From the NCBI GenBank assembly GCA_016793095.1, contig JAEUJQ010000035.1, forward strand, positions 62,001 to 126,000: a DNA stretch of 64,000 bases, given 5' to 3'. Made by a program: the position numbers and the translations under genes. Positions within the stretch are counted from its first letter, which is position 1; every line of letters begins with the position of its first letter. The notes under the pieces are model-generated. The model was not told the DNA's origin. It saw only the letters and a program-made list of their open reading frames with translations, and ran no database searches. This DNA comes from Myxococcaceae bacterium. GTDB lineage: Bacteria; Myxococcota; Myxococcia; Myxococcales; Myxococcaceae. This document shows positions 57,700 to 64,000 of this stretch, in pieces.

Positions 57700-60600
57700 T
57701 CAGCACCCGCCTTCACGTCGGCGACGCCTGCTCCCGACAATCAGCGCGAGCGACACCAGCCCCAGGCCGCTCTCGGCGCCGCTGCAGCCGCAGCCCTTCG
57801 GTGGCTGCATCGCGCCGCCCCCTCCTCCGGCACCACCCATCATCGCGCCACCGCCAGCCGTCGAAGAGCCGCCGCCAGCCGTGCCACCCGCTGTCGCACT
57901 TCCACCGCCCGCGGCCCCACCGCCCTGCCCGACGCAGAGGTCGTCCACCGTGCCATCACAGTCATCGTCGAGGCCGTTGCAGAGCTCGAGCGACGGCTTC
58001 ACCTCGCCCGTGCAGCGCGTGTAGCTGCCGTTGGCGCAGGTGCGCATGCCGCCGACGCAGACGCCGACGCCGCGCGTCTCGGACGGACCGGTGTAGCAGG
58101 GGCGTGGCTCGTCGACGCGGCACTTGCAGGCGTCGTCCACGGTGCCGTTGCAGTCGTCGTCGAGGCCGTTGCAGGTCTCGGCGGTCGGGGTCATCGGCGT
58201 GCAGGTGCGCATCGTCCCCGCGACGCAGCGGCCCACGCTCTTCATCGCGCACGCGCCGACGCCGCACCGGTCGTAGCCGAGGAGCGCCTGGGTCTCGCGC
58301 GCGACCTCCTGCAGCCCGTCGCAGTCGTCGTCGGAGTTGTTGCAGACCTCGGGCGTGGGGATCTTCCCGCCGAAGGCGATGAACCAGCCCCCGTCAGCCC
58401 GGTTGCACTGCAGCACGCCCTCGGCGCACGGCCGCGTCGGCACGGTGCCGGGGCCCGCGTAGAACGACCGCGACGGGCGTGGGCCACCGTCCGGGAAGCG
58501 ACAGTCGAAGTCCTCGTCGTAGAGGCCGTCACAGTCGTTGTCCTTCGTGTCGTCCACCTCAGGCGAGCCGACCCCCGCGTCGCAGGTCTGAGGTACGCCG
58601 TTGAAGCAGTTGTTGACGAGGCGGTAGCAGTTGCCGAGCCCGCAGGCCGTCTGCCCCAGCCCGTCGTCGGCGACGCCATCGCAGTCGTCGTCCTGGCCGT
58701 TGCAGACCTCGGTGCGGGGCTGGTTGAGCGGCAGACAGGTGAGGCGACCCGACTGGCAGCGGCGCTCGCCGGCCTGGCAGATGCCGTACTCCCCCACCAC
58801 GGCGCAGCTCGCGCCGCCGCCCGGGTTGTCCTCGTCGATCAGCCCGTCGCAGTCGTTGTCGAGGCCGTCGCAGGCCTCGGCGAAGGGTCCGATCTGATCG
58901 CGGCAGGCGCCCCAGAAGCCGCTCCGGCAGATCTGCGTGCCTTGTCGGCACTCGCCGGCGCGCAGCGTGTTGGTGTCGGCCGTGTAGCAGGCGCGGCGTT
59001 CTCCATCGGGACACTGCGGCTCGTTCGTCTCGCAGTCGGCGCCGAGCTGCGGCCCTGGGTCGTACGGCGCAGGGCAGGTCTGGTCCACGCCGAGCGCCAC
59101 CTGCAGGCTGCCCACCGTCGGGTACGTGTGCCGTACGCCATCACCGTCGGTGAAGAGGAAGTAGTACGGGTGGCAGCCATTGGGCAGCACATCGGGGTCA
59201 GGGAAGCGCGTCTCGAAGGTGCCGTTCGAGTCCCTGCCCCAGGCTCGCTCCATGTCGAAGCAGTGACCGGCCACCACCACGGCCGCGCGCTGCGGCGCCT
59301 TGCCAGAGCGATCGAAGTAGTTCGCCGCGAACCAGAGCTGCGCGGTCGTGCCCGGGTTGGGCGGGGGGTGCATCGCGCTCGCGGCGGGGATGCGGGGGAT
59401 CGTCACCGGTCCTCGCCCGAAGGCCACTGCCCAGTACGGCATCGAGCACTGGCCCCCTTCGGCGCGGAACAGCCCGGCGGAGAACTCCGTTCCGCCGTCG
59501 GCGTAGATCTGGGCGCGGTTCTGACCCGACTGCATGAGGTTGCACCACAGGTCGAAGGCGGAGGGCACGTTGCGCGCGATGGTGGTGGCGGAGAGGGTGT
59601 TGAAGCCGAAGAAGCCGTAGCGGGCCTGCGCGGTCTGGCCGACGCCCGCGTCGCACGTCTGGCCGCACATCGCGCCGGTGCAGGCGCCGGGAGAGATGCA
59701 GCCGGGCCCGGTGCCAGCGTCGCCGATCTCGCAGCAGCTCTCGTTCTGGTAGCAGCCGATCTCGGCCATGTGCCGCGCCGAGAAGCGGGCGCCGAGGTTC
59801 GCCTCTCGCGAGTACACCAGGGGCGCGCGATCAGGGTTCGCGCCGACCTCGCCAGTGTGATCGCCGCACATGTTGTTGTTCGGGGTGCGGCCGGAGACGC
59901 GGGCCTGGTTGACGAGGACGTGGAGCATGCGCTCCTGATCGGCCGGGTACCCGCTCGCTGGCTCGCCGAGCGCCTGGCTCAGCTGGGCGACGGGCTCGAG
60001 GCCCGAGTCGGTCGCCGAGCTGCAACCCGCCAGCGCGAGGCCCAGCGCGAAGAGGCTCGTCAGGAGCGCCGACTTCGAGGCGGGCTCGCGACGCCTTTCC
60101 CGCCTCCGGCGTACCGCGAGGAGCGCGAGCAACGGGAGCGCCAGCAGCGCGTCTCCCGCCCCGGAGCAACCACAGCCCTTCGGCATCTCGGTCGAGCCGC
60201 CGCCTGCGCCACCGGCCATGCCGCCGCCCGTGCCAGAGCTGCCCTCCTGCACGGTGACGCTCGCGGAGCTGACGAAGAGGCCACAGGTCGCGGTGACGGT
60301 GACGGAGCCCGGCTGGGCGGGGGCGGTGAGGACGCCGGCTGCGTCGATGGTGCCGGCCGACGCGCTCCAGGTGCAGGCCGGCGCCTGGACATCGGCGCCC
60401 GCGAAGTCCTTGCCCTGCGCGGCGAACGCCTGCGTCCCTCCCGTCGAGACGACCGCCATCGCCGGGCTGAGCTCGACCTTCGCGACGCCGGGCTGCACCG
60501 TCACCGTCACGAAGCCCGTCACGGTGAGCTCACGATCGTCCTTCACGTCCACGCGCAGCGTGTAGGTGCCGGGACCGGCGAAGGTGATGGTGGTCTGCTT

Positions 60601-63600
60601 CGCGGCGTTCGTGTTGTTCGGCGAGAACGTCACCAGGGCCGGCGGGTTCGACGCGCCCCAGTGGTAGGTGAGGCCGCTCTCGGCCATGTCGTCGGTCGCG
60701 CTGACGGCGCCGGTGGCGACACCGCCCATGACGGGGCTGGGCGTCACGGTGGGGCCCATGGTGATGCGCGGCACCGGGCCGATCTCGGTGCGGACCATCG
60801 CCGTCGCCACGCGCCCGCCGACGCTGGCGGTGACGGTACACATCCCGGTGGAGGTCGCGGTGAAGCGGCCGGTGGGCGTGATGCTGCCGCAGCCGCTCAC
60901 CATCCACTCGATGTCCTCGGCGGTGTCGAGCGGCTGGCCGAACTGATCGGTCGCCGACGCGTTCAACTGCCGCGAGTCGCCCACGTTGATGGGGCCGGTG
61001 GGCACACCGAAGATGCTGACCGAGGTGGCCGTCGGGACCACGACGACGGAGAGATTGGCCGAGACCGACAGGCCGCCGAGATCGGTCGCGGTCACGCGGA
61101 AGGAATAGGCGCCCGCGCGCTGGAAGGTGACCGTGACGTTCTTCGCGCCGTTGTTCATGTTGTTGTTGAAGGTCACGGCCTGAGGCCCGAACGAGCGGGT
61201 CCACGCGTAGGTGAGATCGGCCTCGCTCCCGGGTGCGGGATCGTCGGCGAGCACGAAGAGATCGGCGGTGGTGCCGACGATGGGGATGGGCGTCGCTGAG
61301 GGCGGCACGACGATGAAGGGCCGCGCGTTGGCGCCCTGCACGCTGAAGTCCTGGCCGGTCGCGTCTCCGCCGTCGAGGGCGACGCTGCGGGCGGCGGGCG
61401 AGAAGGTGAAGCCCGGCTTGAAGGGCGCGACGGTCCACGTGCCCTCGGGGACGTTGGCCAGCGCGTACTTGCCAAGGCCGTCAGTCGTGCCGGACGAGAC
61501 GATGCCGCCGTCAGCCGAGGTCGCGCGCACCTCGGTCGAGAGGAGCGGCGCGCCCGCCTCGTCGATCGTCCCGCGCACGAGCCACAGGGGCTCGGTCGAG
61601 GCGGTGGCGTTGAAGATGAGGTTGGTGACGGGCATCGAGCCCACCGTCACCGGGTTCATGAACATCGGCACGATGCGCTGGTTGGGGGCGGTGGCGACGA
61701 AGTTGTACGAGCCGGCCGGCACGCGGGGGAAGCTGAACGCCCAACTCGCCCCCATCTGCGTCGTCTGCACCGAGCGAACCCCGTCGCTCACCGTGTGCGG
61801 GCCCGCGGTGCCCGTCACCACGCCCGAGACCGGCACGACCTCTTCGATGAAGTTGCAGCCCGACACCGCGCCGCCGTTCACGGTGATGGGGTTGGTGCAG
61901 TTGACGAGGGCGAAGGTCTGCCCCGGCATGCCGCGCGCCGTCAGCGTGTACTGGCCGTTGGGGACGTTGGTGAGCTGGTAGTTGCCCTGCGCATTCGACA
62001 CGGTGGTGTACGCGCCTGCCGAGATCGTCACGCCGGCGAGCGCCTGGCCCACCGAGGTGACGTTGCCGAAGATGCCGAAGCCCGCCCGAATGGCGTTGAA
62101 GTTGATGTTGGTGGCGCCCGTGGCCGGCACCGTCACCGGGTTGGTGAACGCGGGCGACAGGGTCCACCCGGGCCTGGACGCCGTCACGGTGGTGGACGTC
62201 GGCGTCACGCCGACCAGCACGTAGTCGCCGTTGGAGTCCGAGAGGGTGGTGCGCATGCCCGAGGTGACGCGCACCGCGTCGACGCCCAGCATGGTGTTGA
62301 CGTCGGTGATGCGGCCCGAGATGCGCGTCGTCGTGGGGTTGCCGACGCGCACGATGACGTTGGCCGAGGCGACGCCGCCCTTCATGTCGCTGACGGTCAC
62401 CCGCATCACGGCGTCACGCGCGGTGGTGAAGCGGTTCGTCACCATCGCGGTGTTGGTGGAGACGAAGGACTCGCCGCTCGGCGCCTGCAACGACTCCCAC
62501 CAGTACGCCAGTTGGTCGCCGTCAGGGTCCATCGTCATCGCGGTGAAGGTCACCGTCTGGTTCACCGCGGCCTGCGTCAGCGACGCCGTGAGCGTCACCG
62601 TCGGCGGCCGGTTCGAGGTGAAGGCGCCACGATTGACCGTGACGTTGAGCGAAGCGGGCATCGTGTTGCCGACGCCGGTCGGGGTGATGTGAATCCCCGC
62701 GGGAGGGTCGGAGAACGTGCGGCCCACCTGGAGCGGCGCGTCACCAGCGGTCGCGGTGCCCGGGTTCATGTCGAGCAGGTTCGACTCGTCGGACTGCGGG
62801 TAGCCCCAGAAGATGACGGCGCTTCGGGTCAGCGCGCCACCTTCACTGGGCCGGTACTCCACCCAGTAGTCACGCGCCCCGCTGATGGGCACCTTGAGGC
62901 CGTGGATGCCGCCGAGGCTCGGCTGATCGAGGTCGTACACCTGGAAGGTGCCTGACTGCGCCGGCTGCGCGACGACCTGGATCTGCGAAGCCGAGAACCA
63001 GTCGAGGTCCCACTTGTACCAGGCGTTGAAGTGCCCCTTGAGCCCGGTCGCGTTGTCGATGTCGCCCGAGCCCATGGTGTCGAAGGGGTTGCCGTATTCC
63101 TGGCTCGAGCCCGCGCCGATGATGGTCTCGTTGGGGGCCTGCCAGAAGTTCGCGTGGCGCAGCCCGAAGTTGTGCCCGAGCTCGTGCGCGAGCACGCCGA
63201 GGCCATAGCTGCCGTTGATCCACGTCCCGCGCGCGCCCACGTACCCGAGGCCTGCCCAGCTCCAGGCCGAGATCCGCCGGAAGGCGACCACCTCGAGGTC
63301 GAAGTTCGACTGGGGGAAGCCGGCGGTGGCCGCCGCCGAGCGGGCGTCGGAGAGCAGCTGCGACGTGGCGTTCATCGAGCCATACGACGCCTTGGTGCGG
63401 GGCATGCGAAGCACGGTGGGCGTGACGGTGCCGGTGATGCTGGTGAGGTTGAAGCTCGCTGCGCGGTAGTAGCGATCGAGCTCGGTGATGACCGCCTGCG
63501 CGCTGGCGACCGTGAGGGGCTCGCCCGGGTCATCGCTGAAGTCCACGCGGATGTAGAGGACCCGCTTGTTCCCGACCGTCCACGGGGAGGCCTCGGGCTC

Positions 63601-64000
63601 ATCGGGAACGTTCGAGTACGGCACGGCGCCTTCATCGAGGGCGAGCGTCTCGTCGAGGGCGCTGCCGGTCAGCCGCATCGCGGCGCGGGTCTTCAGCCGA
63701 CGGAGCTCGCCCGACGGGTACACGTCGTACCGGCGGCTCCCGACCCAGGCCTGCACCCGCAGCGGCCTGCCGAACTCGCAGAGCACCTCGTACCGGCCCA
63801 GCACGTCGACGGGCAGCTCCAGGTGCTCGGCGACCGACGGCGGCAGGCCCACCCGTGACTCGAAGTGCCGGAGCGCCTGTCGGGGCTCCGTGCGCATCAG
63901 CTCCTTGAGCAGCGGCCGGCGGGCCTTCGCGAGGAGCACGCCCTCGCGCTCGAGGCGGGCGCGCTCGAAGTCGGAGTCAGCGGCCCGGTACTCCCTGGCC
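57700..64000 (-). CDS. two-part surface protein: M11-like metalloprotease with MYXO-CTERM fused to CAP-like/MopE-like protein with second MYXO-CTERM (5' end outside window)
   Basis: The frame is open from the right edge to TGA at 57700, about 2100 codons (residue numbers below count from GTG 63939). Part 1: a propeptide, then a zinc metalloprotease with HELGHNFGLRH at about 252 and EYGNPFDTMG, resembling gametolysin (M11) peptidases, then PKD/Ig-like, carboxypeptidase-regulatory-like and Big2-type beta domains to a Gly/Ser linker. A full MYXO-CTERM tail follows (KGCGCSGAGD near 1253, LLALPLLALLAV, RRRRERRR). Part 2: a lipoprotein signal (ALLTSLFALGLALAGC, Cys about 1306), a CAP/SCP-like domain (MLHVLVNQARVSG, ARFSARHMAEIGC), MopE-type Cys repeats (ACDGLDNDCDGLIDED, EVCNGQDDDCDGVADDG) and a second MYXO tail (KGCGCSGAES near 2046). 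No ATG/GTG/TTG start lies between the parts. Confidence 0.82.
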   Translation of the reverse strand, partial: AREYRAADSDFERARLEREGVLLAKARRPLLKELMRTEPRQALRHFESRVGLPPSVAEHLELPVDVLGRYEVLCEFGRPLRVQAWVGSRRYDVYPSGELRRLKTRAAMRLTGSALDETLALDEGAVPYSNVPDEPEASPWTVGNKRVLYIRVDFSDDPGEPLTVASAQAVITELDRYYRAASFNLTSITGTVTPTVLRMPRTKASYGSMNATSQLLSDARSAAATAGFPQSNFDLEVVAFRRISAWSWAGLGYVGARGTWINGSYGLGVLAHELGHNFGLRHANFWQAPNETIIGAGSSQEYGNPFDTMGSGDIDNATGLKGHFNAWYKWDLDWFSASQIQVVAQPAQSGTFQVYDLDQPSLGGIHGLKVPISGARDYWVEYRPSEGGALTRSAVIFWGYPQSDESNLLDMNPGTATAGDAPLQVGRTFSDPPAGIHITPTGVGNTMPASLNVTVNRGAFTSNRPPTVTLTASLTQAAVNQTVTFTAMTMDPDGDQLAYWWESLQAPSGESFVSTNTAMVTNRFTTARDAVMRVTVSDMKGGVASANVIVRVGNPTTTRISGRITDVNTMLGVDAVRVTSGMRTTLSDSNGDYVLVGVTPTSTTVTASRPGWTLSPAFTNPVTVPATGATNINFNAIRAGFGIFGNVTSVGQALAGVTISAGAYTTVSNAQGNYQLTNVPNGQYTLTARGMPGQTFALVNCTNPITVNGGAVSGCNFIEEVVPVSGVVTGTAGPHTVSDGVRSVQTTQMGASWAFSFPRVPAGSYNFVATAPNQRIVPMFMNPVTVGSMPVTNLIFNATASTEPLWLVRGTIDEAGAPLLSTEVRATSADGGIVSSGTTDGLGKYALANVPEGTWTVAPFKPGFTFSPAARSVALDGGDATGQDFSVQGANARPFIVVPPSATPIPIVGTTADLFVLADDPAPGSEADLTYAWTRSFGPQAVTFNNNMNNGAKNVTVTFQRAGAYSFRVTATDLGGLSVSANLSVVVVPTATSVSIFGVPTGPINVGDSRQLNASATDQFGQPLDTAEDIEWMVSGCGSITPTGRFTATSTGMCTVTASVGGRVATAMVRTEIGPVPRITMGPTVTPSPVMGGVATGAVSATDDMAESGLTYHWGASNPPALVTFSPNNTNAAKQTTITFAGPGTYTLRVDVKDDRELTVTGFVTVTVQPGVAKVELSPAMAVVSTGGTQAFAAQGKDFAGADVQAPACTWSASAGTIDAAGVLTAPAQPGSVTVTATCGLFVSSASVTVQEGSSGTGGGMAGGAGGGSTEMPKGCGCSGAGDALLALPLLALLAVRRRRERRREPASKSALLTSLFALGLALAGCSSATDSGLEPVAQLSQALGEPASGYPADQERMLHVLVNQARVSGRTPNNNMCGDHTGEVGANPDRAPLVYSREANLGARFSARHMAEIGCYQNESCCEIGDAGTGPGCISPGACTGAMCGQTCDAGVGQTAQARYGFFGFNTLSATTIARNVPSAFDLWCNLMQSGQNRAQIYADGGTEFSAGLFRAEGGQCSMPYWAVAFGRGPVTIPRIPAASAMHPPPNPGTTAQLWFAANYFDRSGKAPQRAAVVVAGHCFDMERAWGRDSNGTFETRFPDPDVLPNGCHPYYFLFTDGDGVRHTYPTVGSLQVALGVDQTCPAPYDPGPQLGADCETNEPQCPDGERRACYTADTNTLRAGECRQGTQICRSGFWGACRDQIGPFAEACDGLDNDCDGLIDEDNPGGGASCAVVGEYGICQAGERRCQSGRLTCLPLNQPRTEVCNGQDDDCDGVADDGLGQTACGLGNCYRLVNNCFNGVPQTCDAGVGSPEVDDTKDNDCDGLYDEDFDCRFPDGGPRPSRSFYAGPGTVPTRPCAEGVLQCNRADGGWFIAFGGKIPTPEVCNNSDDDCDGLQEVARETQALLGYDRCGVGACAMKSVGRCVAGTMRTCTPMTPTAETCNGLDDDCNGTVDDACKCRVDEPRPCYTGPSETRGVGVCVGGMRTCANGSYTRCTGEVKPSLELCNGLDDDCDGTVDDLCVGQGGGAAGGGSATAGGTAGGGSSTAGGGAMMGGAGGGGGAMQPPKGCGCSGAESGLGLVSLALIVGSRRRRREGGC
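60022..60180 (-). other. internal junction: MYXO-CTERM tail running into a lipoprotein signal peptide
   Basis: On the minus strand codons run KGCGC (60180 down) - hydrophobic helix - Arg cluster - EPASKSALLTSLFALGLALAGC, ending at the Cys codon 60022-60024. Normally the first ends a protein and the second begins one. No stop lies between them, and no ATG, GTG or TTG within the 16 codons before the hydrophobic core of the signal peptide. This is the point to inspect for a lost stop/start or an assembly error. Confidence 0.8.

Follow-up and report, generated by a model that had tools for sequence, protein, structure and literature searches.

This report concerns a single open reading frame (ORF) on the reverse strand at one end of a 64,000-nucleotide stretch from the draft genome of a Myxococcaceae bacterium (8.81 Mb, 93 contigs). 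The whole stretch, C47:62001-126000, is called the window, and positions given without a contig name are counted from its first letter. The ORF joins two halves that each end in a MYXO-CTERM sorting tail, the second half opening with a lipoprotein-type signal of its own. This description, first made in a sequence-only reading of the window, agrees with the open frame, the TIGR03901 scores and the in-frame lipobox. The gene is probably a natural polyprotein gene yielding two separate envelope proteins, and the joint between its halves is best explained as a reusable module in this myxobacterial group. With somewhat less assurance, the joint is regarded as a general membrane-hairpin cassette, in which a sorting tail and a signal peptide are built around a shared Arg cluster. 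Such a cassette would be a bacterial counterpart of the viral polyprotein junction, its partners being translated as one chain, co-exported 1:1 and released by two different membrane proteases.

The ORF is stop-free from position 57700 to beyond the window end (in-window part 57700-63999, reverse strand) and spans 2148 codons from stop to stop on the contig. Its start is an ATG at codon 17, located at window-equivalent position 64095 (C47:126095), which gives a product of 2131 residues. The N-terminal signal peptide, MSRAFPLALTLLASLPAFAG, is found just beyond the window edge and is followed by a metzincin-like protease, PKD and CarboxypepD_reg/CnaB repeats, the internal MYXO-CTERM, a linker, the lipobox signal, a domain of unproven class, MopE repeats and the terminal MYXO-CTERM. 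Four sorting signals are thus encoded in one frame: the N-terminal signal, the internal tail, the internal lipoprotein signal and the terminal tail.

The internal MYXO-CTERM (60100-60177, reverse strand; C47:122100-122177) consists of a GCGC signature with the invariant Cys, a hydrophobic helix and an Arg cluster (RRRR), and the Cys, helix and Arg cluster are kept in relatives. It scores 18.1 bits against TIGR03901, and the terminal copy (57715-57795, reverse strand; C47:119715-119795), which has the stop 4 residues further on, scores 13.8 bits. Neither value reaches the curated cut-off of 20 bits, a shortfall shared by most of the genome's clear terminal tails, and the internal copy stands at the score level of true terminal tails. 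Across the genome, internal and terminal copies have median scores of 18.1 and 16.5 bits, respectively (Mann-Whitney p=0.29). The internal copy departs from the usual pattern in its position, with 799 residues after it; the extreme C-terminus is occupied by the second copy. The shared linker RRRRERRREPASK (60073-60111, reverse strand), predicted to be cytoplasmic, would both complete the MYXO-CTERM and supply the n-region for the signal that follows, and contains no in-frame ATG, GTG or TTG. It is followed in frame by the lipobox signal SALLTSLFALGLALAGC. By rule, the second half has the positive n-region, h-region and lipobox Cys of a lipoprotein exported by Sec and cleaved by signal peptidase II, in the order RRRRERRREPASK-SALLTSLFALGLALAG-C, where SALLTSLFALGLALAG is the internal signal (60022-60072, reverse strand) and the lipobox Cys is at 60022-60024. 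This signal differs from that of an ordinary lipoprotein in being internal rather than at the protein N-terminus, behind a joint that lacks a start codon.

The fusion is conserved. The frame was open through the joint in all seven genomes of the genus and in five further genera (g18, g10, g2, g3 and g9), and the six other genus genomes were 71-79% identical to the window genome over the joint region. Both halves and both signals were retained from genus to family level at 53-79% identity, and a Cys closed the second signal in every fused relative of the window family. A scan of named genomes also returned the same fusion in six metagenome-assembled genomes (MAGs), some of which may duplicate genomes already counted. 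The linker varied from 4 to 28 residues among relatives; in genus g9 it holds an extra repeat-like stretch, with the frame still open. A linker with an extra in-frame stretch was seen in a member of the window family (L081, G014:C633), where a repeated LRSG motif (HPERSE...) resembles a dispersed repeat insertion.

The arrangement also recurs within the window genome. All TIGR03901 matches but one were examined, and the counts given here rest on these matches, not on the full proteome. The tails were bimodal in position: terminal ones had their protein end 0-31 residues past the match, and eight genuine internal ones were found (C47, the window case, and C19, C30, C13, C39, C52, C34 and C22). 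In all eight, a Sec or lipoprotein signal, of either signal peptidase I type or lipobox type, followed in frame 1-25 residues after the tail. The second halves differ in kind. Three are TolB/CsgG-like proteins and one is a VWA-like lipoprotein placed after MopE repeats, both labels being read from the sequence; the others are the window's own protein of domain and MopE repeats, a CARDB/Ig protein, a short domain after a matrixin, and an OmpA protein after cadherin/TSP3 repeats. A ninth internal match (C74) was discarded as a frame devoid of any domain that looks like a spurious antisense ORF. Elsewhere in the genome, at C79:306599-306795 (L015), the MYXO-CTERM stretch of a 707-residue ORF is tandemly repeated downstream with a period of 113 nucleotides, each copy in another frame, perhaps by slippage.

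Five of the genome's joints were used as search queries, and together with the window genome's own joints these yielded 65 junctions that could be read, spread over seven family groups, a few genomes being met twice. About 100 junctions were read in relatives altogether, from at least eight families; the arrangement, treated at first as a single case, is not unique. The aligned joints share one pattern, consisting of a Cys, a hydrophobic helix, an Arg cluster, a short positive linker, a second hydrophobic stretch, and an AxA or lipobox site. The second signals close with a lipobox Cys in families A and D and have AxA-like sites in families B, C and E. The net charge of the linker was +2 to +10 in every one of the 65 junctions, with acidic residues making up 18 of 708 and a median length of 10 residues. 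The sorting Cys was retained in every aligned junction, partly by selection, since the Cys helped to find the joints. A profile of the joint was then searched against 144 relatives at E<=1e-6 and returned, by hand tally of the match list with most weak matches unread, about 89 stop-free full-length matches as against about seven with a stop, in roughly 49 genomes. Twenty further profile matches were fetched and read, and all were genuine; a separate set of 17 was mostly readable as well and included novel second halves such as a CxxCH haem-motif protein and a Rhs-like lipoprotein. The joint was rare in a sample of the wider phylum, and is therefore found mainly within the order and class to which the window genome belongs. 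Two loci from these relatives may be recorded individually. At L333 (G135:C22:45860-46015), of the same class and another family, an internal MYXO-CTERM and a signal peptide precede a CxxCH haem-motif protein, and at L341 (G056:C1:199412-199549) an internal MYXO-CTERM and a lipobox signal precede a Rhs/YD-repeat-like stretch.

The sorting enzyme is present. MrtX is encoded at C61:7752-8027 (L206), with a score of 337 bits against NF040593 (cut-off 180 bits), and genes for three more CPBP-family intramembrane proteases were found on C88, C82 and C20. According to a study of Myxococcus xanthus, MrtX cleaves MYXO-CTERM tails in a Cys-dependent manner both in that organism and in Escherichia coli (PMC11980579). 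Under the polyprotein interpretation, the N-terminal signal would export the first half until the MYXO-CTERM helix halts transfer in the inner membrane, with its N-terminal side out and its C-terminal side in. The Arg-rich linker would remain in the cytoplasm, where it would close the first protein's tail and also act as n-region for the second signal, and the second hydrophobic stretch would restart export in the N-in, C-out orientation. The Cys-containing tail of the first half would be the site of the MrtX cut, and the second half would be cleaved by LspA in the window protein or by signal peptidase I in other families. The outcome would be two envelope proteins in equal amounts, with a two-helix hairpin left as waste. 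Among the explanations that the sequence-only reading had offered (a polyprotein, a recent deletion fusing two neighbouring genes, or an error), the polyprotein is the best supported by frame, conservation and recurrence, and its two cuts are predicted ones.

Three points weigh against this interpretation. The published MrtX tests concern terminal tails with at most a short epitope tag (PMC11980579), and a cut ahead of a second export signal goes beyond them. The signal peptides were called by simple rules and no trained predictor. The sequence of a fusion that stayed uncut and was held in the membrane by its hairpin would look identical. The last point is also the main support for the strongest rival explanation, in which the MYXO-CTERM helix would pair with the hydrophobic stretch behind it as a permanent hairpin anchoring one large two-domain inner-membrane protein; the short linkers would suit it as well. 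In such a protein, however, the retained sorting Cys and the lipobox Cys or AxA-like sites would serve no purpose, the halves occur as separate and separately sorted proteins in relatives, and the genome encodes MrtX. A permanent hairpin is accordingly held to be unlikely.

It is less probable still that the second half is made mainly from a start codon within the joint, the fused frame being incidental. Some members do retain an ATG or GTG there, and in the window genome about nine ordinary MYXO-CTERM genes stop within about 50 nucleotides of the start of a signal-peptide gene, several pairs overlapping by 4 nucleotides. Against this, 25 of the 65 joints, the window joint among them, have no ATG, GTG or TTG in the span that begins with the final residue of the helix and reaches three residues into the hydrophobic stretch after it, and internal initiation would leave the first half stopless in all members. 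Within the genus of the window, a joint ATG is present in G001, G003 and G005 and absent from the window genome, G006, G002 and G004. Its loss in part of the genus indicates that the downstream start became dispensable, and internal initiation is disfavoured because start codons decay at the joint.

The origin of the joint was approached through relatives in which the partners are separate. In G024 the two halves of the window protein are codirectional genes with one HEAT-repeat-like gene between them; the protease gene closes with its own MYXO-CTERM and stop, and the second protein has an ATG and a lipobox signal of its own at its start. The halves are separate in G010 too, as genes on different contigs. 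The search for joined and separate halves proposed with the sequence-only reading thus returned both forms, joined in the genus and the five other genera and separate in these two genomes. The window product is encoded in one uninterrupted frame and its halves occur alone in relatives, as expected of a polyprotein composed of two proteins able to exist apart. In the OmpA family, G068 encodes the pair as separate genes, and its second signal lies about 236 nucleotides past the Arg cluster. The upstream gene of this pair was 71% identical over 441 residues to the upstream half of a fused protein in G064, of the same genus, when BLAST was run with the low-complexity filter off; with the filter on, the upstream partners gave no match. 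At 53 homologous loci from three families, no convincing MYXO-CTERM was found within about 60 nucleotides of the second signal, either in another frame or with a stop in between. The close pairs of MYXO-CTERM and signal-peptide genes mentioned above are the likely source of joints, by way of stop loss. At C20:67626-68594 (L042), two MYXO-CTERM genes of about 300 residues each adjoin, the second ATG being in frame 3 nucleotides past the first stop, so that one stop loss would create a new polyprotein.

The window joint likely arose by an old fusion of neighbouring genes, as the split genes of G024 suggest. The fusion proposed in the sequence-only reading is to that extent retained, and its recent date is given up, the joint being conserved to family level. 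On a tree of the second half, the window fusion needs at least one to two changes. Birth from fused neighbours would also fit a relic, that is, an old gene fusion tolerated with one half or one signal functionless. This explanation is considered very improbable, since neither half and neither signal has been lost between genus and family level, and independent families show identical grammar. A sequencing or assembly error that deleted a stop and a start has next to no likelihood even for a draft in 93 contigs, because independently assembled genomes, from seven members of the genus and five other genera and including the six named MAGs, have the identical open joint.

The domains of the two halves were assigned with differing success. 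The first half is metzincin-like, its HEXXHXXGXXH motif being present as HELGHNFGLRH in the active-site region (63154-63261, reverse strand), which has matches to Reprolysin_3, M11 and TIGR03296. The M12B/M11 matches are weak: Reprolysin_3 in Pfam (residues 247-282) scores 20 bits, and M11 (PF05548) reaches 17.3 bits, under the cut-off of 21. The match to TIGR03296 (M6) is partial at 51 bits, also under its cut-off. The earlier label 'M11-like' is therefore only one option among several. A protease paralogue, M6/metzincin-like and 49% identical, is encoded in a 1755-residue frame at C66:6974-7972 (L308). Downstream of the protease region are a PKD domain (62365-62598, reverse strand; PF00801, E 4.6e-12, residues 468-545), CarboxypepD_reg/CnaB-like repeats (61339-62070, reverse strand; PF13620 and PF13715) and, directly ahead of the internal sorting tail, a PKD-like domain (60496-60699, reverse strand; PF22352, residues 1101-1168). 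The first domain of the second half (59041-60024, reverse strand) is conserved in relatives. It had no Pfam match even at E<=10 and no convincing match in a sequence search of the PDB, its AlphaFold model was of low confidence (pLDDT 33), and its membership in the CAP superfamily is unproven. The MopE-type (DNDCDG) repeats that follow (57930-58890, reverse strand, outer limits set by eye) were confirmed by Pfam as earlier read (PF11617, E 3.5e-17).

If the interpretation holds, polyproteins, usually deemed rare in bacteria, would be common in a social bacterial group, with a grammar of sorting tail plus signal peptide. Sec would move a single chain outward, back inward and outward once more, and the myxosortase would work in mid-chain. 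Partner surface proteins, including proteases, adhesins with OmpA anchors and metal-binding repeats, would be produced in a fixed ratio. For annotation, a MYXO-CTERM should not always be taken as the end of a protein, as ORFs of this kind would conceal a second secreted protein.

Comparable precursors are known. In Bradyrhizobium japonicum, the FbcH precursor of cytochrome b and c1 is encoded in one ORF and becomes two proteins through a signal peptidase cut at an internal signal. It resembles the product proposed for the window gene in being split at such a signal, but it lacks a sorting tail and is a single respiratory-complex case rather than a repeated module. Polyproteins of the Flaviviridae, as described in a review (PMC7601889), contain internal signal sequences at which the host's signal peptidase divides them. 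A membrane helix precedes the signal sequence in a similar succession, and the cut falls on the membrane's far side; these polyproteins differ in belonging to eukaryotic viruses, with unrelated machinery and no sorting enzyme. In the open-access literature, nothing on bacterial polyproteins of such build was found that comes closer than the M. xanthus case MXAN_5598 described below. TraA and TraB of M. xanthus likewise combine a MYXO-CTERM adhesin with a downstream partner of OmpA type, but their ORFs overlap (PMC11980579), so that two ORFs stand where one frame is found here. Compared with known MYXO-CTERM/MrtX sorting (TIGR03901, NF040593), the tail is the same tripartite one and MrtX is encoded, whereas the tail here is internal and a new export signal replaces the stop. 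The nearest published case is MXAN_5598 of M. xanthus (mBio 2025, PMC11980579), a large adhesin with an internal MYXO-CTERM followed by an outer-membrane beta-barrel/OmpA part, whose gene adjoins ftsA and ftsZ. In the passages concerned, its authors suggest a gene fusion with processing of the N-terminal part, and call internal tags rare, naming one case. A fused protein adjoining ftsZ in G064 (L342), probably the MXAN_5598 ortholog, has the same joint with a second signal present, GRGCSTSGAGTFMPLALLLLALPLLRRVRRQARGVAAGVAGSVVLAGALAAQPAQAQ, and the M. xanthus protein offers an immediate test ground. The passages on MXAN_5598 describe no second signal peptide, whereas the joints reported here follow a fixed two-signal grammar, with eight cases in one genome and representatives in many families.

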